Virus record (IMG/VR): IMGVR_UViG_3300009181_006602
Coordinates: 26,525 to 90,524 of that record
Reading direction: 5' to 3' (one strand)
Source: a virus
Length of the DNA stretch: 64,000 nucleotides
Shown here in pieces: positions 10,936 through 24,978 of the stretch (positions are counted from its first letter, which is position 1; each line of letters starts with the position of its first letter). A model generated the notes under the pieces. It had not been told where the DNA came from and did not search any database. It was given only the letters and a program-made list of their open reading frames with translations. The position numbers were made by a program, and so were the translations under genes.

Positions 10936-12351
10936 CTAGAGTATCTTGGATGCCAAGGTGGCTAATTCCGAGCGCTCGCCCTTAATAAGACTAACATGAC
11001 CTGCGATGCTATGTTCTTTAAACTTTTCAACTGCATAAGTTAAGCCATTTGTAAAAGTATCAACGTGAACGTTGTCAATCTGTTCAATGTCTCCAGTGAG
11101 AACTATTTTAGTTCCGTCGCCAACTCGAGTAATAATAGTCTTCAATTCATGCATCGAAAGATTTTGAGCCTCATCAATAATAACATAAGCGTTTGGAATT
11201 GATCGACCTCGAATAAATGTAATCGCCTCTATTTCAATAAGCCCTTTTTCTTGCATTAGTGCCAAATAATATTCATCGCTAATTCTAGACTTTGCTGAGT
11301 CGGCCACAGCACGTTTTTTATTTCCTTTTCTATTATTCATTAAGAAATTAATATTATCTCTAATTGGTGCTATCCATGGTTCCATTTTTTCTTCGAGTGT
11401 GCCTGGAAGAAATCCGATGTCTTTACCGACAGGCTGGACAGGTCTAGTCACAATAAGCTTTTCATATTTAGCATGGTCAGGACTTCCTATTCCTTTAAGC
11501 TGTTCTAGTGCAGCCGCAATAGCCAATAAAGTTTTTCCTGTACCTGATGGACCAGTTAGCGTAAGAAGTTTAATATCATTGTCGAATAGTAGATCTAACG
11601 AAAATGTTTGTTCTTTGTTACGAGGCTTAAGTCCAAAAGCTTGTTCAATTTTAGCAATAGGAATTAACGGTTGCGAAGGCTCAATACACTTTGTCAACGC
11701 TGATCTTGTCGTCTTTCCGTCTATGCCTGTGTTTTTTATTACAACTATTTGATTTGGATACAACGAGTTGTTGCTTGCTTCTTCAGGCGAAAGTAATAAC
11801 TCACTTTCTTTATAAAATTGTTCTACACGATTCTCATTGACCTCGACAACAGCAACGCCTCTATAGAAGTGCTCGGCGTCAGGAGTTACTCTCATGTTTA
11901 AATAATCCTCGCACTTGATTCCTAAAGAATCGCACTTAATTCTAACATTAATATCCTTACTAACAAGAATAGCAAACTTACTATTCTCATAATTGTTAAA
12001 GACGCTTTCTTGCTTAAGCTGCAACATAAAAGAAATAATCATGTTATCTACCTTGGAAGATGATAGCTCAGGAGGCAAATTAATTAAGCTTCCAGGATTT
12101 ATTGCGGCAATTCTTAACGTGCCACCTCTTTGTAGCGCAACGCCTTCAACTAAACTACCTTTTAATCGCAGCGCGTCGAGTGTCTTAGATGTTTGTCTAG
12201 CATTTCTTCCAACCTCATCAAGACGACTTTTATGATGATCAAGTTCTTCGAGTACTGCCATCGGTATAATAAGATCATTGTCTTCAAATGAAAATATCGC
12301 AGATGGATCACTAAGCAAAACGTTGGTGTCTAAAACGTATGTTTTTTTCAT
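10936..12351 (-). CDS. phoH: PhoH family protein (PIN domain + PhoH ATPase)
   Basis: 471 residues from the ATG at 12349-12351; a TTG five codons upstream is less likely. The N-terminus is a PIN-type RNase domain (KKTYVLDTNVLLSDP, then an acidic EELD). The C-terminal half is a PhoH P-loop ATPase: Walker A GPSGTGKT near residue 268, then TRPVQPVGKDIGFLPGTLEE, and Walker B VIIDEAQN followed by LTGDIEQID. PIN-PhoH proteins (PhoH2/YlaK type) are RNA helicase/RNase enzymes in bacteria, and phoH is a very common auxiliary gene in marine and T4-like phages. Role in infection is unproven; RNA turnover is the usual inference. It is divergent from the sigma-like gene at 12430 and shares its AT-rich control region. 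Confidence 0.93.
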   Translation of the reverse strand: MKKTYVLDTNVLLSDPSAIFSFEDNDLIIPMAVLEELDHHKSRLDEVGRNARQTSKTLDALRLKGSLVEGVALQRGGTLRIAAINPGSLINLPPELSSSKVDNMIISFMLQLKQESVFNNYENSKFAILVSKDINVRIKCDSLGIKCEDYLNMRVTPDAEHFYRGVAVVEVNENRVEQFYKESELLLSPEEASNNSLYPNQIVVIKNTGIDGKTTRSALTKCIEPSQPLIPIAKIEQAFGLKPRNKEQTFSLDLLFDNDIKLLTLTGPSGTGKTLLAIAAALEQLKGIGSPDHAKYEKLIVTRPVQPVGKDIGFLPGTLEEKMEPWIAPIRDNINFLMNNRKGNKKRAVADSAKSRISDEYYLALMQEKGLIEIEAITFIRGRSIPNAYVIIDEAQNLSMHELKTIITRVGDGTKIVLTGDIEQIDNVHVDTFTNGLTYAVEKFKEHSIAGHVSLIKGERSELATLASKIL

Positions 12352-12398
12352 ATAACCTATAAACAATTATACTATATAATTAAACAATTAAATACTGA
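12352..12398. promoter_or_regulatory. Divergent AT-rich promoter region (candidate -10 boxes both ways)
   Basis: The short space between phoH and the sigma-like gene holds TATAAT on the plus strand at 12375-12380 and TATAAT on the minus strand (complement at 12366-12371). No good -35 hexamer is visible for either. Divergent transcription from here is inferred from gene orientation. Confidence 0.4.
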
Positions 12399-13539: not shown

Positions 13540-15186
13540 TCAACAACTAATATTAAACTCTTTTAGAAATAGGTTTCTATTCATTTTATAAAATCTTTCC
13601 CAATCGCTATCGAGAATATAAGACGCGGCATGGTCGGTTTCATTTCTAATAGATCTGCCTAAGGATTGAATGATAGACTTAGCAGTCATATAAGAATACC
13701 ACTTTTCGTTTTTTTCCATGCGCTTCTTAACCACTAAACTACCGAGGTAAGGAAAAGGCACTTTACATATAATCTGAAATCTACTTAAATCATCCCGTAA
13801 GTCTACGCCTTCCATCATTGATGGACTTAACAAAACAGTCGGATCTTTACTACTAATATGAATATTTAAAACTTCGTCTCTATTAATCGAATCATGAAGC
13901 AATAATCGAGGGGAGTTAATATTCTCCTTGACGTATTTCGCAATCCTATAGTTCGTACAATGAATGATACCTTTGTCATTTGAGTGCTTCTCTAAAAGCA
14001 TCTTAACAGTTTCTACCATAACGGGTAATGTTTTATCTATCATGGATTTTGACATACTTCCAACAGGAATATAATGAATTGGTCTATTTTCTATCGGAAA
14101 TGGCGAAGGAATAGACAAGTAAGCTACATCGTTTAAATCTAGACCTAGTGAAGAACAAAAAATGTTTTTATCTACGATAGTAGCAGACATCATGAGTATC
14201 CTGCCTCCAAGCTTAAAAAGTGTATCATGACTATAAGGAGAAACATTGATAGATTTAAATTCGTATTTCTTACCTGCATTTTTACTATCAGATGCTGGGA
14301 TAGCTACGTTCATCGTCCAGTTTTCAGTATTATAAACCTCAATAAATTTATCGATTTTATTAAGATGTTTATCTAGTAACTCATATTGTTTTGAATAAAT
14401 TCCGTATCCTTCAATATCATTACTAAGTTTTAATAGCGACTTTTCTATTGAGCGCATATGCTTTTTTAGTGCCTTTAGATAAGTCGTCTTTACCCATTCG
14501 TGGATGATTGTTTGCGAATCTGAGCGTGGTGGTTTACACTTAACAATATCTCTCGCAAACTTTTCAGAAAAAGTAACTTCGATAAATTTGCTTAATTCAG
14601 ATTCTGTATTGTGAGCTTCATCAATAACCAATAACGCTCTAGGTTCTAATTTGCCTGAATATGCAGATTCAGCAAGAATATACGGAAAATTCGTTATAGA
14701 AATAGGCGAGTCAATAAACTGTTGCTTTTCTATTGAATATGGACAATTAGTCTTGCAATGCTTTTGAAATTCAGTACCTACCAACTGTTTTGTCAATTTA
14801 GACAACACTCTTTTAGATTCTGCGCAGGTTTGATCTTCATAAAACCCACAATGATAATTACTGGAAGACTTGATAGACTTAACTAGATTTTTCTCTGACG
14901 TCGGTCCAAAATCGTTTAAATACTGTTGTTGCAATATTTTTTGTGTAGTGACGATATAAGTCCCTGTGAGCGTGTCACCATTTTGATCGCGTAAAGAAGA
15001 TCCATGCGCATCCATATATCTAGCTACACATACGCCCGTAGCTGATTTACCTACGCCTGTGCCTAGTTCTAGGACTACGTATTTTTTCCCGCTTTCGAAT
15101 GCATCAAGAACATATTCAATAGCTTTTCCTTGTTCGGGTCTAATTTTTGAGAAAGGAAAGTATCGTATATAGTCATGAAGAGGCAT
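13540..15186 (-). CDS. DinG/XPD-like superfamily 2 DNA helicase with Fe-S cluster motif
   Basis: 548 residues. Walker A LELGTGVGKSAT (Lys47) follows a Q-motif-like region. Four cysteines at 113, 121, 144 and 148 are spaced like the 4Fe-4S cluster of XPD/DinG. Walker B is VIDEAHN (DEAH at 189-192). Late motifs are SPSMMEGVDLRDD (motif V) and QSLGRSIRNETDHA (motif VI). This set is diagnostic of the Rad3/XPD/DinG family of 5'-3' DNA helicases. The nuclease domain found in some DinG proteins is absent. Probable role: phage DNA replication, repair or recombination. It is a single gene with short spacers on both sides. Confidence 0.9.
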   Translation of the reverse strand: MPLHDYIRYFPFSKIRPEQGKAIEYVLDAFESGKKYVVLELGTGVGKSATGVCVARYMDAHGSSLRDQNGDTLTGTYIVTTQKILQQQYLNDFGPTSEKNLVKSIKSSSNYHCGFYEDQTCAESKRVLSKLTKQLVGTEFQKHCKTNCPYSIEKQQFIDSPISITNFPYILAESAYSGKLEPRALLVIDEAHNTESELSKFIEVTFSEKFARDIVKCKPPRSDSQTIIHEWVKTTYLKALKKHMRSIEKSLLKLSNDIEGYGIYSKQYELLDKHLNKIDKFIEVYNTENWTMNVAIPASDSKNAGKKYEFKSINVSPYSHDTLFKLGGRILMMSATIVDKNIFCSSLGLDLNDVAYLSIPSPFPIENRPIHYIPVGSMSKSMIDKTLPVMVETVKMLLEKHSNDKGIIHCTNYRIAKYVKENINSPRLLLHDSINRDEVLNIHISSKDPTVLLSPSMMEGVDLRDDLSRFQIICKVPFPYLGSLVVKKRMEKNEKWYSYMTAKSIIQSLGRSIRNETDHAASYILDSDWERFYKMNRNLFLKEFNISC

Positions 15187-15238: not shown

Positions 15239-15835
15239 TTATTCGGCGCCGATAATTTTATCTACAATTCCCATTTCAACGGCTTGTTGAGGCGTCAAGA
15301 AAAAGTCATGACCAGCTTTCATAAGTTTGTCAATATTTTCTTTTTTCATCTTTGTTTCTGACATGAGAGCTGTAACCATTAGTTCATGCAATCTTTCAAA
15401 TTCCTTCATTTCGTTCATGGCCTCGAATACGTTGCCAAGCACTCCACCTGAAATAGGATGAATCATAATTCTAGCAGAACGTCCTATCATTCTCTTGCCT
15501 TTGACACCAGAAGCAAGAAGCAAAACACCGGCTGACATAACCTTACCTAATGCTATGGTATAGACATCGCATGGGAGGAATTTAATGGTATCATAAAGAG
15601 AGAACATCTCATCGACTGATCCACCATAAGTTGAAATTACAAGATGAATTGGTTTGTGATTTTGATTTGCGAGATGAAGAAGTTGAACAATTACGCTGGA
15701 TATTGAGTGTTCATTAACTTCCCCATGAAGAACTACCAGTCTATCATCAGCGCCATGGGCGAGACTAGAGACGTAGTACGAATCATCGCTACTATTTGAT
15801 TTATTTTTATAAGCTGCGCTAACTGATCTACCCAT
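15239..15835 (-). CDS. clpP: ClpP-like serine protease
   Basis: 198 residues from the ATG at 15833-15835. A longer frame starting at 15862 exists, but the internal ATG has AAGGAA six bases upstream and overlaps the upstream stop by eight bases, so it is preferred. Family signatures: VISTYGGSV (oxyanion strand), GKVMSAGVLLLASG with the nucleophile Ser101, RIMIHP with His126, and GHDFFLTPQQAVEMGIVD with Asp177. The catalytic triad is thus complete. ClpP proteases degrade proteins with a AAA+ partner such as ClpX; no such partner is visible here, so it may use the host's, or act as a capsid-maturation protease as some phage ClpP-like enzymes do. Confidence 0.92.
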   Translation of the reverse strand: MGRSVSAAYKNKSNSSDDSYYVSSLAHGADDRLVVLHGEVNEHSISSVIVQLLHLANQNHKPIHLVISTYGGSVDEMFSLYDTIKFLPCDVYTIALGKVMSAGVLLLASGVKGKRMIGRSARIMIHPISGGVLGNVFEAMNEMKEFERLHELMVTALMSETKMKKENIDKLMKAGHDFFLTPQQAVEMGIVDKIIGAE

Positions 15836-16070
15836 TGTGTATTCCTTCGTATATACCAGCAATCGTTAAGTTTGGTACTAACTCTTTTAAAAAGCCAGAA
15901 ATATTCTGTGCCTTTTCGATATCTTCTAACTCTAAACTCAAATAATACATAATGAGATATTTTTGTCTTTCTGATATTCCAAATTGATATATCTCACCAA
16001 TAATTTTACGAGCAATAATGCTTTCTTCAGCTAGTTTATCTGCATTTGTTGAACCATAAAGTTCGCTCAT
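15828..16070 (-). CDS. Small hypothetical protein (80 aa)
   Basis: 80 residues, mostly helical and acidic, beginning MSELYGSTNADKLAEESIIA. No motif recognised. It overlaps the upstream zinc-ribbon-like gene by four bases and the downstream clpP by eight bases, so the three are translationally coupled. That coupling makes a partner or regulator of the protease a possibility, but nothing in the sequence shows it. Confidence 0.65.
   Translation of the reverse strand: MSELYGSTNADKLAEESIIARKIIGEIYQFGISERQKYLIMYYLSLELEDIEKAQNISGFLKELVPNLTIAGIYEGIHNG
15842..15847 (-). promoter_or_regulatory. Ribosome binding site deciding the clpP start
   Basis: AAGGAA on the minus strand followed by six bases and ATG at 15833-15835. 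It lies inside the 3' end of the upstream gene and supports the shorter ClpP. Confidence 0.65.
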
Positions 16071-16537
16071 ATTAATAGCCCAGATGATCTAGTGAATACT
16101 TCTACTTTACAAAGAGAATCACTTAAAATTACGATATACTTACCATGAATTTCTTCACCTTCAGTTTCTGTAGTCATAATTGCAAATTCTCCCCATTTTT
16201 TATTTTCTACAATAAATCTTGTAGCTTCCCAAGTTGCAAGATCAGCGAAACTGGCTTCGAGTACATTAGCAAAGTTAGGGTGCAAAGATGATTTGATGTC
16301 TTCAATTTTCATTAAAGAGTTCATGTTTTCCTTGGTGGGTAATACCTCAGACTTACACACATCGGTAACCTTATGTATGATTCCGCAATTGTTGCATTGC
16401 GCATATTTAGCAACAACATTCTCATCGTCATCTAGAACTGAAAAAACAACAAATTGATGTGGTGGTGGATTCTCTAACTTTTTAAATTGAGGTAGAACGC
16501 AGCGACACCTAATAAGATGTTTTTGTCCTCTACTCAT
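16067..16537 (-). CDS. Hypothetical protein with zinc-ribbon-like cysteines
   Basis: 156 residues. Cysteines at the N-terminus (IRCRC) and a CNNCG knuckle around residue 50, within AQCNNCGIIHKVTDVC, suggest a small zinc ribbon. The rest is alpha/beta with several aromatic residues (ADLATWEATRFIVENKKW). It overlaps both neighbours by four bases, placing it in one operon with the 87-residue gene upstream and the 80-residue gene and clpP downstream. Similar small Cys-containing proteins occur in large phages, function unknown. Confidence 0.65.
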   Translation of the reverse strand: MSRGQKHLIRCRCVLPQFKKLENPPPHQFVVFSVLDDDENVVAKYAQCNNCGIIHKVTDVCKSEVLPTKENMNSLMKIEDIKSSLHPNFANVLEASFADLATWEATRFIVENKKWGEFAIMTTETEGEEIHGKYIVILSDSLCKVEVFTRSSGLLI

Positions 16538-16797
16538 TTTTTCTTTTTTGGCGTTTCGTCGGTGACGCCTTCCACGAACGTTGTCTTCAACGAACGTTGA
16601 AAATTACTTAAACCTCTTTGATAACCTTGTGTTATAGAAATATCAACCATATCAACCACCAGTCTAAGTTGGTCATCTGTTAATTTTTGTCCGAGTGCGC
16701 CGGTGCTATTAGCAGAACTTAAATTAGCTTTAGTTAAATCTTTAGAATAATTAAGTAAGTTCAAAACTTCTTTAGAAACTTTATCTATTTTGTTCAT
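16534..16797 (-). CDS. Small hypothetical protein (87 aa)
   Basis: 87 residues, helical, starting MNKIDKVSKEVLNLLN and ending in a lysine tail (DETPKKKK). No family recognised. It appears to be the promoter-proximal gene of the leftward clpP operon. Upstream on the minus strand, at the complement of 16823-16832, CAATAAATAC resembles the T4 late promoter core TATAAATA, but the match is imperfect. Confidence 0.6.
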   Translation of the reverse strand: MNKIDKVSKEVLNLLNYSKDLTKANLSSANSTGALGQKLTDDQLRLVVDMVDISITQGYQRGLSNFQRSLKTTFVEGVTDETPKKKK

Positions 16798-16863: not shown

Positions 16864-18036
16864 ATGAAAACATTAAAACAAGAATATAAATTAAAAAAAA
16901 TAAATGAGCTTAAGCACAGAGTAAGGAAATCAGAACTAATCTTAATAGAAAACGATAAAGATATTCAAACGTCTTTGCTGCTCGAGGCGCTCGATGAGGA
17001 TGAGTATAAAAAGGCTACAGAAGTCATAGAAAAACTTAGAAAAATTTCTGGCGTAGCTAAAAGTCTGAATTTAAGCATATTACCTAAAGCTATAGAGGAT
17101 TGTGTTAAGGATATAAATACATTCGCTGGTGGCGACTTCAAAACAAAGGCTATGGGACAATTGGCTTCTTTATTTAGCAAATCAGCTCCTTCTAGTAACC
17201 CTATATTAAAAGGATTGTCTTTTGCTAGCGCACTAGAAGCTGGTTTTAAATCACTTCAAACAGTCGTAAAAAATAACATCAAAGACATTCAAAACAAGAT
17301 GGACGTTTCGATCATCAAATCATCGGAAGAAGATCCTGCGATACAAAAAAACATCTCTAATGCGCTGACTAAATCATTTATACCAGCCGGTGTATTCGGA
17401 AAGTTATTCGGTAAAATTCCTTATATTGCTGATTCTAAAAAATTGATCGAAGAAATAATGACATTAACGCCTGACCAGATTAATCAGATATATGAGCCGC
17501 TCAATAGCGGTACTAAGGCCGCTGATGTCGATCAAAACATAACAGACGAAGATGCCAACGATGCTGCAGCTAAAGAAATAGGAGACAAAGAAGGCGGTAA
17601 GGAGGCTGGCGAAGATGAAGCTAAGGAGACTAGTTCTGGTAAATCACAAAAAGGTAAAGCAAAAGATGCGCTAGTAAGTGCAACACAAAAGGCTGCGAAA
17701 AGTGCTGGCATAACTGATGGCGAGGCTATGAATTCTTTAATGAAAGAATTAGGTTATGAACTAGGCTCTTTCGAGGGGTCTTTAGTCGCACCTGCATTAA
17801 CAGAGTTGATGGCAGATAAAAATATAGATGCTGATCAAATAGACGGATTCATTAAGGGCATGATGACGGATTTTGAAACAGAATTTAAAAATGATATTGA
17901 TAAAAAAATAAAAGCAAACGCTGACAAAATTAAAAAGGACGCAGCTGCTAAAGCTAAAAAAGCCAGTGGTGATTCAAAGAAAACACCTAGCGCTGCTGAA
18001 ATTCAACAAGCTTTTATAGACAGCGTAGAGGTGTAA
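16864..18036 (+). CDS. Ala/Lys/Asp-rich helical protein, function unknown (390 aa)
   Basis: 390 residues. The N-terminal 70 residues are strongly charged and coiled-coil-like (KQEYKLKKINELKHRVRKS). A hydrophobic middle part includes KSFIPAGVFGKLFGKIPYIA. An acidic low-complexity linker (around 225-265, EDANDAAAKEIGDKEGGKEA) precedes a Lys/Ala-rich C-terminus. No enzyme motif. This composition is seen in phage internal head, scaffold or ejected proteins, but that is only a possibility. It is a single rightward gene flanked by leftward genes and followed by its own terminator, so it is a stand-alone transcription unit. Start: ATG 16864 with GGGAG eleven bases upstream. Confidence 0.7.
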   Translation: MKTLKQEYKLKKINELKHRVRKSELILIENDKDIQTSLLLEALDEDEYKKATEVIEKLRKISGVAKSLNLSILPKAIEDCVKDINTFAGGDFKTKAMGQLASLFSKSAPSSNPILKGLSFASALEAGFKSLQTVVKNNIKDIQNKMDVSIIKSSEEDPAIQKNISNALTKSFIPAGVFGKLFGKIPYIADSKKLIEEIMTLTPDQINQIYEPLNSGTKAADVDQNITDEDANDAAAKEIGDKEGGKEAGEDEAKETSSGKSQKGKAKDALVSATQKAAKSAGITDGEAMNSLMKELGYELGSFEGSLVAPALTELMADKNIDADQIDGFIKGMMTDFETEFKNDIDKKIKANADKIKKDAAAKAKKASGDSKKTPSAAEIQQAFIDSVEV

Positions 18037-18102: not shown

Positions 18103-19257
18103 TTATGATATTATACAACCAAGACGATTATATTCTTTAAAAAAGGAACTGTAATAATGCTCGGCTACCTTTAGTGACGTTAACGGATATAAGTTACCAT
18201 TGTATTCAATGACACCATGGGTAGCAGCTATCTTAATCGCTCGAAGCGCTCTATCAATCATGAAACTTCTTTTATACGTATTGTGATCTGCTTTTAACGA
18301 TATTGTTACTCTATTCGATCCTAGATTTTTTATTCTTTTTGCCATCAACTCTTTCGTTGCTGTTAATTCAACTTCTAGTAATTTTTTTTGAAGTAATAAT
18401 ATATGTCGATCAACGTCAAGTCTAGTATTACATTTTTCTACTAAAATACCGGCTTCACTAATGTTAATATAGTCAACACGAGGGGCTAATGATATATCGA
18501 CATTGTTAATCAATTGTCCTTTTAAAGTTGATATTAGATCGCCACCAGAAACTATTGCAATATCGTTCAATAAATTAACACCGTCTAAATCATACTTGAC
18601 TATAAATGGCAATATGGATAGCGAACCTCTTTCGCAGTTAACCTTGATAGTATGTGCTACATCATCAGACATGCCTCGTACAAAAAGAAAAACATTGTCC
18701 TTTATTTGTGAAGCGTCTTCTAGTATGCGATGTATTTCTGAAACTGATTCTACATATCCATCGATGCATATCACCTTAGGACCTAGATATTTCGAATTTT
18801 TTAATTTTAATATTGAAACAACATCAGGGAAAAAGCTACCATCATTTAGCTCAACTACGTCTTCATTGTGTTGCTGGTTTAATAAAACGACTTTACCGTT
18901 TAGACCAGCTAAACATATTGCCTCGTGTACAAGATCTGCTAGCCCTTTATCAACATATGTTGATATAAGCGTTTTTAAGTTAACGCCATCCAACTTTTGA
19001 CAAAAGTTGTTGCAATCGATCTTGTTATTTTTATCTACGTTTAAAAGAAGCTGCAACATTAAATCAGATGCCCCAGCTGAGAGAGTCTCTACTTTGATTA
19101 AGTACGTTAACAATAAATTAGAAATCGCAGTTTTTGTGGATGTTTCAAATTTTAATTGTTGCAGCGCTTGTAGTCCTAAGTTTGTATTAAGACAATTTTT
19201 ATAATTTTTTAAAATGCTAGCTAAATGTACGTCAAGTTCTTTTGTAACTATTTCCAC
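18103..19257 (-). CDS. Divergent, shortened GroEL-like chaperonin
   Basis: 384 residues against about 545 for GroEL, from a GTG start (19255-19257). GroEL landmarks read in order. TAISNLLL...LSAGAS (43-64) aligns without gaps to TATVLAQA...AAGAN. HEAICLAGLNGKVVLL (111-126) matches the intermediate domain. PKVICIDGYVESVSEIHRIL (160-179) and LLNDIAIVSGGDLIS (229-243) match the apical domain. RIKNLGSNRVTISLKA and DRALRAIKIAATHGVI (308-350) match the return to the equatorial domain. By hand alignment the ATPase residues Asp87 (in GDGTT) and Asp398 are replaced by Thr39 and Arg336. The GGG nucleotide loop is also lost, and most of both equatorial ends is missing. It may be an ATP-independent, apical-domain chaperone or a decoy/partner of host GroEL. 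Confidence 0.75.
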   Translation of the reverse strand: MEIVTKELDVHLASILKNYKNCLNTNLGLQALQQLKFETSTKTAISNLLLTYLIKVETLSAGASDLMLQLLLNVDKNNKIDCNNFCQKLDGVNLKTLISTYVDKGLADLVHEAICLAGLNGKVVLLNQQHNEDVVELNDGSFFPDVVSILKLKNSKYLGPKVICIDGYVESVSEIHRILEDASQIKDNVFLFVRGMSDDVAHTIKVNCERGSLSILPFIVKYDLDGVNLLNDIAIVSGGDLISTLKGQLINNVDISLAPRVDYINISEAGILVEKCNTRLDVDRHILLLQKKLLEVELTATKELMAKRIKNLGSNRVTISLKADHNTYKRSFMIDRALRAIKIAATHGVIEYNGNLYPLTSLKVAEHYYSSFFKEYNRLGCIIS

Positions 19258-19294: not shown

Positions 19295-19834
19295 CTATGG
19301 AGAGTTTTTTATCGAACTAAAAAATAACTTTAAAACGACAGCAATAAGGCCACCTCCTAAAGCAGCACCGACCCATTTGATGCCAGAAAATAGAACATTT
19401 TGAAACTTTTCAACATTACTCATTGAAATTTCAAGCTTTTGTATTTTTATTTGCATCAATCCAGATTCTTTTTCTAGTGTATCTTCAGCTTCGTTAGATA
19501 GTCGCTTCCACGTTGAATATTCTATAAGCTGTTTTTCTATTTCTGTCACCGAATCAATATTAGCAGCCTTGTTTAAAGCGATTCTAGAAAAAAGTCCATC
19601 ATCAGGATCGTAAATCGCTTCGTGTATTTTATCAACTTTTTGAATGATTTGAGCTTGACATTTTTCTATATTATCAACATTAAATAACAACTTATCAAAT
19701 CCGCCATTTAAGGCCGGACTTATATCCAGCTTGGCATAAATATTTTTTAATAAATCCTTGGACTCTTGATCATCCAAAGAGTCGTCTTCTTTTTCGATTT
19801 TTAAAGATCTTTTATGAAAAGTTTTTTTGTTCAT
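19295..19834 (-). CDS. Coiled-coil protein with C-terminal membrane anchor
   Basis: 179 residues. The N-terminus is charged (MNKKTFHKRSLKIEKEDDS), the middle is a long heptad-like helix with several Glu/Lys pairs, and residues about 148-172 form one hydrophobic segment, GIKWVGAALGGGLIAVVLKL, ending in a short tail. The topology is that of a tail-anchored or spanin/holin-like helper, but there is no family match by eye. It lies 37 bases upstream of the GroEL-like gene on the same strand, so they probably share a transcript starting in the divergent region at 19.84-20.05 kb. Confidence 0.65.
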   Translation of the reverse strand: MNKKTFHKRSLKIEKEDDSLDDQESKDLLKNIYAKLDISPALNGGFDKLLFNVDNIEKCQAQIIQKVDKIHEAIYDPDDGLFSRIALNKAANIDSVTEIEKQLIEYSTWKRLSNEAEDTLEKESGLMQIKIQKLEISMSNVEKFQNVLFSGIKWVGAALGGGLIAVVLKLFFSSIKNSP

Positions 19835-19848: not shown

Positions 19849-19882
19849 AGTAACTTATAATTAAGAAAATTTTAAGATTATT

Positions 19883-19962
19883 TATCTTATCTTATCTTAT
19901 CTTATCTTATCTTATCTTATCTTTATCTTAGATCTTATCTTATCTTTATCTTAGATCTTAGG
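19883..19962. repeat. Pentanucleotide and 23-bp tandem repeats in a divergent intergenic region
   Basis: Positions 19883-19920 are about 7.6 perfect copies of a five-base unit (TATCT/CTTAT). This runs into a 23-base unit starting CTTTATCTTAGATCTTATC at 19921 and again, incomplete, at 19944. The whole tract is pyrimidine-rich on the plus strand apart from the As. It lies between two divergently transcribed genes, where repeats of this kind may bind protein or ease unwinding. Confidence 0.9.
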
Positions 19963-20057: not shown

Positions 20058-22010
20058 ATGCCAACATTTAATACCAAAGACGAGATATTTGGATCTAAAA
20101 TAAAAGACCAGCATCAAGTGATCTTTGTCGCCGACCTTTTCGTTGAGGATTATATCGGTGGAGCAGAATTAACATCAGAGGCCCTTATTTCTGAATCGCC
20201 TTATGGCGTTTTGAAGCTTAAATCGCAAGACGTTACTATGGATCTCTTGCAGCAAGGTGCCGATAAGTTTTGGATTTTTGGAAATTTTTCTGCGCTTAAC
20301 CCGCAACTAATCCCCAGCATAGTAGCTAATCTTAAATATTCAGTGCTTGAATACGACTACAAGTATTGTCGCTATCGATCCCCAGAAAAACACTTGTCCG
20401 TTACAGAAAAATCTTGCGACTGTCATGAACAAATTAATGGTAAATTGATATCTGCTTTTTATTGCGGAGCACAAGGGATGTGGTGGATGTCAGAAGGACA
20501 AAAAGACCATTACACTAGTTTGTTTCCGTTTTTATTAGAAAAATCAAACGTTGTTCTATCCAGCGTTTTTAATAAAAAAACTTTAGGGACCATCAGGGCG
20601 CTCAGAGAAGGCATTCTAAAGTCAAAAGAGGAACGTAAAAAGTGGATTGTTCTTGGGTCAGAATCGTGGATAAAAGGTTTTGATGATGCAAAAAGTTGGT
20701 GTAAGGAAAATGTTAAAGACGTCGATGTGTTATGGAACATGTCTTATGAAACGACTTTAACAAAAATTGCTATAGCCGAAGGATTTGTTTATTTACCACG
20801 AGGTAAAGACACCTGCCCACGAATGGTTATTGAAGCTAAACTATTAGGTTGCACGCTACACATTAATGATAACGTTCAACACAAAAATGAAGAATGGTTC
20901 GCTACTGATGACATTGAATCGATTGAAGCATATCTTTATGCAGCGCCTGGTTTATTTTGGAATGGAATTAGAAGTATGATGAACTATAAACCAACCATCA
21001 GCGGATACACACAAACTCGAAACTGTATTGAACAAAATTACCCGTGGGAACAATCTATTAAGTCGTTACTAGGATTTTGTAATGAGGTTATTATAGTAGA
21101 CGGAGGTTCAACAGACGGTACTTGGGAAAGACTTTTAGAGATTCAGCAAATCGAACCTCGAGTGAAGCCATTTCAAATAACAAGAGATTGGAATGATAAA
21201 CGCTTTGCTCTTTTCAATGGGCAACAAAAAGCTGAAGCCCGATCTAAATGTATAAGCGAATTTTGCTGGCAGGTCGATATCGATGAAGTCGTACACGAAG
21301 ATGACTATTCTAAGATAATTGACCTCGTAACGAAATTTCCAAAAGGTGTCGATCTTATAGCACTCCCAGTTGTTGAATATTGGGGTGGACCTGAAAAGGT
21401 TCGCGTTGATGTTAATCCTTGGAAATGGAGATTAAGCCGTAATAATCCTAACATTACGCACGGTTTACCAAAGTCCCATCGTAGATTTGATGATGAGGGT
21501 ACCATGTTCTCTATTGGCTCAGATGGAGATGACTATATCTACAAGGATACTTTGGAAAATGTACCGTGCGTATCATTCTACACGAACGAAGTTGATTCTG
21601 CTCGCCAAGCGGCGATGAGCGGCAATAAACAAGCTCTTGTGGCTTATGAAAATTGGCTTAATCAAGTTGTCGAACAACTTCCAGGAGTCTATCATTATTC
21701 ATGGTATGATCTCGAGAGAAAGATCCACACATATAAGGGTTTTTGGTCGCGCCACTGGACGTCGCTCTATAATCAAGTACAAGAAGATGTATCAGAGAAC
21801 AACAAGTTTTTTGACAAGAAGTGGTCCGACGTGAATGACGAAGAGATTAAAGATCTTGCAGTTCGTATGAAGGCCGAGCTGGGTGGCTGGATATTTCACC
21901 ATCGTGTTGACTTTTCCAAACCGACACCATGGTTAATCATCAAAAAATCAGAGCCGGCAGTAATGACAACCAGGGGACAAGTGTTTAGTTCGGAGATCGC
22001 CACCACATGA
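20058..22010 (+). CDS. Two-domain glycosyltransferase (GT-B-like + GT2)
   Basis: 650 residues. Residues 1-300 look like a GT4-type GT-B enzyme: IGGAELTSEAL near the N-terminus, GSESWIKGFDDA, and an acidic site in CPRMVIEAKLLGC. From about residue 320 there is a family 2 GT-A domain: NYPWEQSIKSLLGFCNEVII, VDGGSTDGTWE, then the metal-binding WQVDIDEVVHED near 405. It is the first gene of the rightward glycan island and overlaps the next GT gene by four bases. Probably adds two successive sugars. The start codon overlaps a TATAAATA sequence and has no evident Shine-Dalgarno. Confidence 0.82.
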   Translation: MPTFNTKDEIFGSKIKDQHQVIFVADLFVEDYIGGAELTSEALISESPYGVLKLKSQDVTMDLLQQGADKFWIFGNFSALNPQLIPSIVANLKYSVLEYDYKYCRYRSPEKHLSVTEKSCDCHEQINGKLISAFYCGAQGMWWMSEGQKDHYTSLFPFLLEKSNVVLSSVFNKKTLGTIRALREGILKSKEERKKWIVLGSESWIKGFDDAKSWCKENVKDVDVLWNMSYETTLTKIAIAEGFVYLPRGKDTCPRMVIEAKLLGCTLHINDNVQHKNEEWFATDDIESIEAYLYAAPGLFWNGIRSMMNYKPTISGYTQTRNCIEQNYPWEQSIKSLLGFCNEVIIVDGGSTDGTWERLLEIQQIEPRVKPFQITRDWNDKRFALFNGQQKAEARSKCISEFCWQVDIDEVVHEDDYSKIIDLVTKFPKGVDLIALPVVEYWGGPEKVRVDVNPWKWRLSRNNPNITHGLPKSHRRFDDEGTMFSIGSDGDDYIYKDTLENVPCVSFYTNEVDSARQAAMSGNKQALVAYENWLNQVVEQLPGVYHYSWYDLERKIHTYKGFWSRHWTSLYNQVQEDVSENNKFFDKKWSDVNDEEIKDLAVRMKAELGGWIFHHRVDFSKPTPWLIIKKSEPAVMTTRGQVFSSEIATT

Positions 22011-22744
22011 AGAATCGTTTTGTCTTCGTCGTTCCGTATTACAATGCGGAAGAAGACATATCAAAGACCCTCCACTCTATAATGGCCCAAAGTTATGATG
22101 AGTGGAGGGCTATTGTTATCAACGATATGTCTACCGACAATGGATCTAATCTCACCTCGCGAATAGTCGATGGGTCCATCCATCGAGACAAATTTACTCT
22201 CGTAGACAGGGTAGAGAAGCATGGAGAAGTTCGTAATACTCTTGTATCGTTAGATTCGATAGAAGATGATGAGGTTGTATGTCGATTGGACGGCGGAGAC
22301 TGGCTACTGGAAAACGATCTACTATGGGTGCTTAACGAAACGTACAATGATCCATCTCAGGCGGTCGCCTGGACAGCGCACAGGTGGAGCTATACAACAA
22401 GAAATATCTCTGGACCTTTAAATTTACAATCGAGTCAAACTGTCTATCAACACCCGTGGGTTTCAAGTCACCTGAAGACATTTCGTGCAGGACAACTTCG
22501 TAAAGTTCCAAAAGCTAACTTTTTTACAGACTCAGGCGAGTACATAATGATTGCATGCGATCAAGCGATATTCTTACCAATGATGCATCTCTCCCATGGA
22601 GAAGGAAAAAAGTTGAACTTCGTACCTATTGTCGGATACCATTACAATATCAATCTAGGAAATAAAAATTTATTTACTTCGAATAGAGCGATCAATCAAA
22701 AGATGTCAGCTGAGACGATCCGCGAAAGAGGATTTTTAGAGTGA
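22007..22744 (+). CDS. Family 2 glycosyltransferase
   Basis: 245 residues. Typical GT2 opening FVFVVPYYNAEEDISKTLHS, then SMAQSY-like and VINDMSTDNGS (nucleotide-binding), and the DxD-type VCRLDGGDW around residue 90. Overlaps both the preceding and following genes by four bases (ATGA and GTGA), so it is translationally coupled in the island. Its G+C appears a little higher than its neighbours, for example in 22140-22320, hinting at separate origin. Sugar donor unknown. Confidence 0.85.
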   Translation: MKNRFVFVVPYYNAEEDISKTLHSIMAQSYDEWRAIVINDMSTDNGSNLTSRIVDGSIHRDKFTLVDRVEKHGEVRNTLVSLDSIEDDEVVCRLDGGDWLLENDLLWVLNETYNDPSQAVAWTAHRWSYTTRNISGPLNLQSSQTVYQHPWVSSHLKTFRAGQLRKVPKANFFTDSGEYIMIACDQAIFLPMMHLSHGEGKKLNFVPIVGYHYNINLGNKNLFTSNRAINQKMSAETIRERGFLE

Positions 22745-23631
22745 AGATATTGTTAGACAACGTTGATATCAATTCTTCCTCAGGCCCAAACTCTTTTGGT
22801 CGATTGTTATCAGAAGAACTCAAAAGAGTTGGTCACCATATTAGCTCGCGATTAATAGATCCAGACGTTCAACTTTCTTTTATAGTCGCATCTCAAAAAA
22901 AAGCTAAACTAGCTTTACGCCTTGATGGAATATACTTTAACTCTCGACAAGATTGGGAATCCATGAATTCGTCTATTAAGAATTCGTTTAATCTTGCAGA
23001 CGTAGTAATATACCAATCTAATTTTAATAAAACATTGACTGAAAAGTTTTTTGGATATGCAAAAAACTCATTCGTAATAAATAATGGTACTTGTTTAGAA
23101 ACTATTCGTAGTATTAATCCATTAGCTCAACAAGAGCTTGACGAGTATTCAGAAGTATGGTCGTGTGCATCCTCTTGGAGACCTCACAAAAGACTAAAGG
23201 AAAATATCGGTTATTTTTTAGAAAAAGCGCCTATTGATTCTTGTCTTATTGTTGCCGGTGAAAATCCAGATCACGTCATTAAGCACCCTAGGATATTTTA
23301 TGTAGGACAACTTTCTTGGAGAGATTGCATATCTCTATATAAAAGATCAACTACTTTTTTACATTTAGCATTTTTAGATCACTGTCCTAATGTTGTTATC
23401 GACGCTGTTGCTTCTGGTTGTAAGTTGATTGTGGCATCTAGCGGAGGAACAAGCGAGATTGCAGGACTTAATGCTTTGGTCATTAAAGATTTGGATTGGG
23501 ATATGTCGCCGCTTGACCTTTATTCGCCGCCTGCTTTAGATTACTCTAAAGAAAAGCAAAATTGTGTTATATCAAATATTAATATAATCGATGTCGGCAC
23601 TCGCTATATAAATGCGCTAGGATCAATATGA
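22741..23631 (+). CDS. Family 4 (GT-B) glycosyltransferase
   Basis: 296 residues with GTG start at 22741. C-terminal half has the GT4 donor-binding signature: CPNVVIDAVASGCKLIVASS followed by GGTSEIAGLNALVI. Middle shows VIYQSNFNKTLTEKFFG and SCASSWRPHKRLKENI (donor-site K/R). Short for GT4 (usually 350-400), mainly in the N-terminal acceptor domain. Four-base overlaps on both sides. Donor and acceptor unknown. Confidence 0.8.
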   Translation: MKILLDNVDINSSSGPNSFGRLLSEELKRVGHHISSRLIDPDVQLSFIVASQKKAKLALRLDGIYFNSRQDWESMNSSIKNSFNLADVVIYQSNFNKTLTEKFFGYAKNSFVINNGTCLETIRSINPLAQQELDEYSEVWSCASSWRPHKRLKENIGYFLEKAPIDSCLIVAGENPDHVIKHPRIFYVGQLSWRDCISLYKRSTTFLHLAFLDHCPNVVIDAVASGCKLIVASSGGTSEIAGLNALVIKDLDWDMSPLDLYSPPALDYSKEKQNCVISNINIIDVGTRYINALGSI

Positions 23632-23984
23632 AAAACATACACGAATCTGTTAGTTGTTTGTTGACAGCAAAGCTTGTTAAATACAAAAACGAGAAATTGA
23701 ACGTCGCCACTTGTACTTTAATATATCAAGATATATTTGAAACTTTCGTTGATGTAATTCAAGAATCACAAATCGAAATAAGCAATGAAGCAATGAATAT
23801 GATATGTCAAATGTATTATGACGTAGTTGCCATCAACGGAAATCAAGAGTTGGATCCAAACATTTTCTCACAAAGAGCTAGCGTAAAAAATATAGAAACA
23901 AAAGAACTAGCATTGTTAGCTAGCATTTTTTCTAATACGCCTTTTGCTGTGCCTTTTATTCTTGAAGTAAAAAAGAGGTCGTAA
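23628..23984 (+). CDS. Hypothetical protein in glycan island (118 aa)
   Basis: 118 residues, helical, with a few cysteines (SVSCLLTAKLV, VATCTLIYQDIFETF). No signal peptide, membrane segment or known motif. Overlaps the GT4 gene upstream by four bases and is one base from the GDP-mannose dehydratase gene downstream, so it is embedded in the sugar operon. Role unknown. Confidence 0.6.
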   Translation: MKNIHESVSCLLTAKLVKYKNEKLNVATCTLIYQDIFETFVDVIQESQIEISNEAMNMICQMYYDVVAINGNQELDPNIFSQRASVKNIETKELALLASIFSNTPFAVPFILEVKKRS

Positions 23985-23985
23985 T

Positions 23986-24978
23986 ATGAGTAAGCGTGCT
24001 TTCATAACAGGCGTAACTGGTCAGGATGGTAGCTATCTTGTTGATCTTTTGGCATCAAAAGGTTACGAAGTACACGGTCTTATCAGACAATCTACGCAAT
24101 TTACGCCTGATCGTTGGGGACACTTAAAAGGAGCAATGTTGTCTAAAAAGCTAGAAGTTCATCATGGCGATCTAATGGACGCATCAGGAATGAGAGTAAT
24201 ATTAGAAACCATTCAACCTGACGAAGTTTATAATCTCGCAGCGCAAAGCCATGTTGGTATATCTTTTGAACAGCCAGTTAATACTTCAGAAGTTACAGCT
24301 CTTGGCACGCTTTATCTATTAGATGCGATCAAACGTTCTAAATTAAATTGTAAATTTTATCAGGCATCATCAAGCGAGATGTTCGGAAAAGTTAAACTGA
24401 CTCCGCAAAACGAAGAAACGCCTTTTTATCCTAGAAGCCCATACGGTTGCGCAAAAGTATACGCTCATTATATTACACAAAACTATAGAGAATCCTATGA
24501 CATCTTTGCATGCTCAGGCATTTTATTCAATCATGAATCCGAGCGAAGAGGAGAAAACTTTGTGACTCGTAAAATCACAAGAGCCATTGGTCGTATTAAA
24601 GCTGGTTTGCAAAACGAGTTGCGAATGGGAAATACGACGGCGCTTAGAGACTGGGGATATGCACCTGAATACGTTGAAGCAATGTGGCTAATGTTGCAAC
24701 AAGATCAGCCTAACGATTATGTGATAGGTACAGGAACGCAACACTCTGTTCAAGAATTTATCGATGCAGCTTTCGCCATCGCCGGCCTTGATAAAGATCA
24801 ATATATCAAAATAGATCAGAAATTTATGAGACCGTCGGAAGTAGATACACTTATCGCCGATACTTCGAAGGCTAAAGAAGTTTTGGGTTGGACACCTCAA
24901 GTTGACTTTAACACGCTTGTTAAAAAGATGGTAGAGCATGATATTGCGTTGGCAGAGAAGGAAAAATCTCTTTTCTAA
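23986..24978 (+). CDS. gmd: GDP-mannose 4,6-dehydratase
   Basis: 330 residues, close to the usual length for bacterial Gmd. Extended SDR family: NAD(P)-binding ITGVTGQDGSYL at 8-18, YNLAAQSHVGISFEQPVN (Gmd signature), SSSEMFG, and the catalytic SPYGCAKVYAHY with Tyr153 and Lys157, then FNHESERRGENFVTRKI, also characteristic of Gmd. It converts GDP-mannose to GDP-4-keto-6-deoxymannose, precursor of GDP-fucose, GDP-rhamnose or GDP-perosamine. No fucose synthase is seen nearby, so the next step may be by a host or elsewhere-encoded enzyme. Confidence 0.95.
   Translation: MSKRAFITGVTGQDGSYLVDLLASKGYEVHGLIRQSTQFTPDRWGHLKGAMLSKKLEVHHGDLMDASGMRVILETIQPDEVYNLAAQSHVGISFEQPVNTSEVTALGTLYLLDAIKRSKLNCKFYQASSSEMFGKVKLTPQNEETPFYPRSPYGCAKVYAHYITQNYRESYDIFACSGILFNHESERRGENFVTRKITRAIGRIKAGLQNELRMGNTTALRDWGYAPEYVEAMWLMLQQDQPNDYVIGTGTQHSVQEFIDAAFAIAGLDKDQYIKIDQKFMRPSEVDTLIADTSKAKEVLGWTPQVDFNTLVKKMVEHDIALAEKEKSLF

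Follow-up and report, generated by a model that had tools for sequence, protein, structure and literature searches.

The locus

The window analysed here is a 64,000-nucleotide stretch of viral DNA that belongs to a 90.5-kb linear IMG/VR record. On its minus strand is a complete, frameshift-free open reading frame that resembles GroEL in its central part and is much reduced at either end (Table 1). Upstream of the GTG start only a few codons stay open, the next gene upstream ends at 19295 and the convergent downstream gene ends at 18036; the neighbours on both sides are thus too close for the missing GroEL ends to be hidden next door. A split gene, with the equatorial part encoded elsewhere, was rejected as well, since neither PF00118 nor a search for additional PHROG 5725 matches revealed any other GroEL-like stretch in the whole 90.5-kb record.

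The rest of the record encodes a gp23-type major capsid protein (Pfam, 1.8e-76), a gp21-type prohead protease and a T4-type large terminase, and on these grounds the phage is T4-like. A large portal-like protein (L005 10068-13238, minus strand) carries what by eye is an apparent intein-like insert (CLHKDTKIAVPGG ... DTVISHN).

The short GroEL gene lies in a cluster whose order (179 aa, short GroEL, 87 aa, 156 aa, 80 aa, ClpP-like protease, DinG-like helicase, PhoH) is nearly fixed, on one strand, across 74 loci. A further group of distant, helicase-bearing loci (L019, L022-L024, L026, L027, L031 and L032) has no cluster gene besides the helicase. The 156-aa protein has six invariant residues (H7, C11, C13, C48, C51 and H55; zinc-ribbon-like by eye), a mean column identity of 50% over 52 members and a confident structural model (pLDDT 91); it gave no significant match to the PDB by sequence or fold and zero matches in the phage collection. 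The ClpP-like protease has an apparent Ser-His-Asp triad by eye and is distinct from the gp21-type prohead protease; no AAA+ unfoldase of its own was recognised beside it. TTATC tandem repeats (19878-19953; period 5, about 15 copies) lie upstream of the cluster, in the intergenic region between divergent genes, and a long run of plus-strand genes occupies 20058-42587, in which those at 20058-24978 resemble, by eye, glycosyltransferases and nucleotide-sugar enzymes, including a GDP-mannose dehydratase-like gene at 23986-24978.

Table 1. Features of the short GroEL-like gene and its cluster. Coordinates are window positions, except the one prefixed L005; fractions give the number of loci with the gene.
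Feature	Residues	Coordinates	Strand	Remarks
179-aa protein		19295..19834	-	C-terminal membrane-like segment (by eye); directly upstream in 53/74
Short GroEL-like gene	384 aa	18103..19257	-	apical and intermediate domains with reduced equatorial stump; GTG start at 19257, stop at 18103-18105
Equatorial stump	1-90	18988..19257	-	predicted helices 8-23, 28-33, 40-59, 63-72
Intermediate domain	91-120	18898..18987	-	equivalents of helices F and G
Apical domain	121-318	18304..18897	-	
Loop and helix H segment	166-186	18700..18762	-	DGYVESVSEIHRILEDASQIK; His176 = GroEL Leu234
Helix I segment	197-211	18625..18669	-	SDDVAHTIKVNCERG; Lys205 = GroEL Val263
Second intermediate segment	319-348	18214..18303	-	with helix M; Arg336 = GroEL Asp398
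C-terminal stump	349-384	18106..18213	-	short hairpin and one helix
87-aa conserved neighbour		16534..16797	-	46/74
156-aa Cys/His neighbour		16067..16537	-	70/74
80-aa conserved neighbour		15828..16070	-	65/74
ClpP-like protease		15239..15862	-	Pfam 3e-41; 61/74
DinG/XPD-type helicase		13540..15186	-	PHROG 2488; 63/74; anchor for finding relatives
PIN-PhoH protein		10936..12366	-	69/74
gp21-type prohead protease		L005 8579-9193		

Family of short forms and homology to GroEL

A single-sequence scan of viral contigs with the window protein found zero relatives; the family was gathered by scanning these contigs first for the neighbouring DinG-like helicase and then with a profile. This gave 75 non-identical short forms (the window protein included), all with intact frames and all in uncultured phage contigs. 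Their lengths are 369-509 aa, mostly 370-416 aa. Three longer members (L081, L085 and L103; 497-509 aa) have an extended N- or C-terminal part in which the ATPase motifs are still absent. Close pairs have dN/dS values of about 0.07-0.25, and the short forms are under purifying selection.

With three different members as queries, the phage collection yielded no short form, although GroEL homologues occur in 278 of its records. The most distant of these homologues match through the N-terminal stretch of the equatorial domain, where the ATP site lies, the opposite of what is seen with the short forms. A scan of bacterial and archaeal genomes returned a single weak match on a Bradyrhizobium contig (L124 7001-7387; 22% identity, 3e-5, to residues 229-354), which could be an ordinary GroEL.

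The original prediction read the gene as GroEL through the intermediate and apical domains, and this was borne out. The window protein matches the PHROG 5725 GroEL profile at 5.2e-18 (profile positions 150-423 of 540) and, as a single sequence, PDB GroEL at 2e-8 (phmmer); a profile of 69 short forms matches PDB GroEL at 8e-33, and profile-profile comparison of short forms with full-length GroELs gives a probability of 99.7 (E 1.2e-25). The equivalents of GroEL Leu237, Asn265, Asp291 and Arg368 are retained. An AlphaFold monomer model of the window protein has a mean pLDDT of 90.7 and a pTM of 0.79, and a Foldseek search with the predicted structure against the PDB gave top matches that are all GroEL/Hsp60 (9e-22), the best listed TM-score (0.67) being to a subunit of the Thermus Cpn60/Cpn10 complex. 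Against the viral library there were nine significant matches, all of at least 511 aa, and the named ones are chaperonins. The window protein is homologous to GroEL over these two domains, well beyond chance. It has no match to Pfam PF00118, falling below the curated cut-off, and the same model matches 1 of 69 short forms, at 0.0048. Weak Pfam matches of the window protein to Radical SAM and YebF were dismissed as chance.

A tree built from the apical and intermediate region places the short forms in one clade (support 100) on a long branch, apart from the full-length phage GroELs. The clade sits closer to full-length GroELs from large phages than to the E. coli protein, a placement that may reflect long-branch attraction.

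Equatorial domain and nucleotide site

Five motifs (TxGP, KDG, GDGTTT, GGG and DPxKV) are all present in 13/13 full-length GroELs. Among the short forms, GDGTTT and DPxKV occur in 0/75, TxGP and KDG in 1/75 each, and GGG in 2/75. In the window protein, the equatorial stump lacks TLGP, KDG and GDGTTT and is among the least conserved regions (mean top-residue frequency about 0.3), while the C-terminal stump replaces the GGG loop together with about 130 residues of the equatorial domain. The family as a whole is shortened on both sides of the conserved core: the median number of residues before the Asp224 equivalent is 182, vs 231 in full-length GroELs, and after the Arg368 equivalent 76, vs 165, a loss of about 50 and about 90 residues, respectively. 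A complete equatorial domain is absent from the short forms, as had been proposed for the window protein when most of both ends of this domain were noted to be missing.

The gapless alignment by eye behind the original prediction also placed Thr39 and Arg336 opposite the two aspartates used by GroEL for ATP hydrolysis, Asp87 and Asp398. The replacement of Asp398 by Arg336 is firm, being recovered in our alignments, and an equivalent replacement is found in 74/75 short forms. For Asp87 one half of the claim stands: no alignment places an aspartate there (0/75 short forms), but the pairing with Thr39 holds only in the gapless alignment, the true counterpart being ambiguous because the equatorial stump is weakly conserved and different alignments place it differently. 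At position 52 an aspartate occurs in 4/75 short forms, within a poorly aligned stretch. The GGG loop, also predicted to be gone, is missing from the window protein and from 73/75 short forms. Motif loss across 75 related members, rather than merely private decay in one phage, makes the predicted loss of ATPase activity in the family well supported at the level of sequence. In GroEL, the ring contacts are made by the N- and C-terminal equatorial segments. The equatorial losses would accordingly remove the ring-contact segments together with the nucleotide site. Because the nucleotide site and the complete equatorial domain were both tested for and both are lacking, the short forms should not be filed as chaperonins; they are a chaperonin-derived family.

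The apical groove and possible roles

The substrate-binding residues of GroEL include Tyr199, Tyr203, Phe204, Leu234, Leu237, Leu259 and Val263 (PMC3268035). At position 234, the short forms mostly have His (48/75) or Asn (19/75), with a hydrophobic residue in 4%, vs 100% of full-length GroELs; at position 263, Lys predominates (47/75), with a hydrophobic residue in 16%, again vs 100%. Position 259 is hydrophobic in 68% of short forms (Ala in the window protein), positions 237 and 264 are still hydrophobic, and positions 199, 203 and 204 are hydrophobic wherever a residue aligns. Conservation peaks in the segments of helices H and I, which line this groove: their mean top-residue frequencies are 0.69 and 0.68, against about 0.3 in the terminal stumps. 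As aligned, the groove between the two helices is recoded from hydrophobic to partly polar or charged, and such strong constraint on a groove of altered chemistry suggests that it binds a specific ligand rather than being generally sticky.

We consider that there is about an even chance that the short form is an ATP-independent, ring-less derivative of a chaperonin, whose recoded groove binds a specific partner or partners. Such a protein would have abandoned the chaperonin function itself: it would be a monomer or small oligomer and not a GroEL-type ring, would not hydrolyse ATP, and would bind in its groove one specific protein, or a few, from phage or host, with a dedicated role during infection as escort, assembly factor or adaptor. 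Its most probable ligands or functional partners would be the 156-aa Cys/His, 80-aa and 87-aa proteins of the cluster, or a phage morphogenesis protein. The fixed operon position speaks for shared regulation or function, not for contact.

A natural minichaperone, whose apical domain binds unfolded phage proteins such as the gp23-type capsid protein hydrophobically and without ATP, is rather unlikely. The apical domain is intact and the most conserved part of the protein, Leu237 and Val264 are retained, and the isolated GroEL apical domain has been studied as an aggregation suppressor (PMC4973282). Moreover, a gp23-type capsid gene was found in 20/24 records tested, and T4 gp23 requires GroEL and gp31 (PMC3012670). 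Some generic binding may persist, given the hydrophobic residues at 237 and 264 and, where aligned, at 199, 203 and 204. However, the changes of Leu234 to His or Asn and of Val263 to Lys across most short forms fall in the most conserved region and weaken the idea of a generic minichaperone, and many large carriers already have a full GroEL.

The idea of a regulator or lid, which would dock on a host or phage GroEL, on its co-chaperonin or on ring substrates and so alter the cycle, we regard as quite unlikely. Of the 11 carrier records that reach 190 kb or more, 9 also encode a separate, full-length GroEL whose motifs are intact, making the short form a paralogue in these phages, and no Cpn10 or gp31 was found in 52 records with PF00166, a model that does detect T4 gp31. 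(Two gp31-like candidates from PHROG 931, with E values of 0.004-0.008 over 33-52 positions inside larger frames, were put down to chance.) Against this, a full-length phage GroEL was found in 0/9 carriers of 120-190 kb and in none of the smaller carriers searched, so that such a partner is not obligatory; the absence is itself weak evidence, since the carrier records may be incomplete. The suggestion that the protein could join host GroEL rings as a subunit is unlikely to be correct because it lacks the N- and C-terminal equatorial ring-contact segments; it may still bind a GroEL ring in a different manner.

A role as substrate adaptor for the ClpP-like protease of the same cluster is improbable: in most loci the protease gene follows a few genes further downstream, in the same orientation, but in the divergent loci L015-L017, where the helicase is relocated and no ClpP was found in the cluster, the short GroEL gene is still linked to those for the 156-aa and 80-aa proteins. 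That the gene is a decaying GroEL pseudogene, as the large losses at both ends might suggest, is contradicted by the 75 intact frames, dN/dS well below 1, fixed gene order and sharply conserved helices H and I, and can be given almost no weight.

Returning to the ring-less derivative with a specific partner, we tentatively propose, at somewhat under an even chance, a narrower version: a new class of protein derived from chaperonins, in which an ATPase-less GroEL paralogue has had its groove re-specialised to one partner and works with the novel Cys/His protein as a system dedicated to assembly or escort in giant phages of the T4-like kind, alongside the normal GroEL cage or in place of it.

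Compared with GroEL/Hsp60 (PF00118, PHROG 5725), which it resembles in the sequence and fold of the intermediate and apical domains, the short form lacks the nucleotide motifs and most of the equatorial domain, has a recoded groove and falls under the Pfam cut-off. EL gp146, OBP gp246, AR9 gp228 and other phage GroELs are likewise GroEL homologues encoded by large phages, and three of them work without a co-chaperonin (PMC9598537); the characterised phage chaperonins, however, have three domains and ATPase activity, whereas the short form has no ATPase motifs. Engineered GroEL minichaperones (apical, residues 191-376; PMC4973282) also consist of an apical domain with no ATP site but are man-made, keep the hydrophobic groove and have no intermediate domain. 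Natural derivatives exist in the PIKFYVE Fab1_TCP domain, a chaperonin apical domain reused in a kinase, and in BBS6/10/12, of which BBS12 has no recognisable ATP-hydrolysis motif (PMC2846930). As described, these are eukaryotic and derived from group II chaperonins, and the BBS proteins keep three domains. In the literature covered, which was partial and hence weak evidence, no phage GroEL homologue without an ATP site was found.

A 2022 paper states that all known chaperonins, the phage ones too, have three domains (PMC9598537). The short-form family departs consistently from this rule across many phages, with the engine and the ring parts lost and the gripping groove strongly constrained in altered chemistry. 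Nature here provides a test of what the apical domain of a chaperonin is capable of by itself, and of the way in which a promiscuous folding machine can become a specific binder. The family may also be relevant to the folding or assembly of gp23-type capsids in large T4-like phages, a task for which T4 itself uses host GroEL and the phage gp31.
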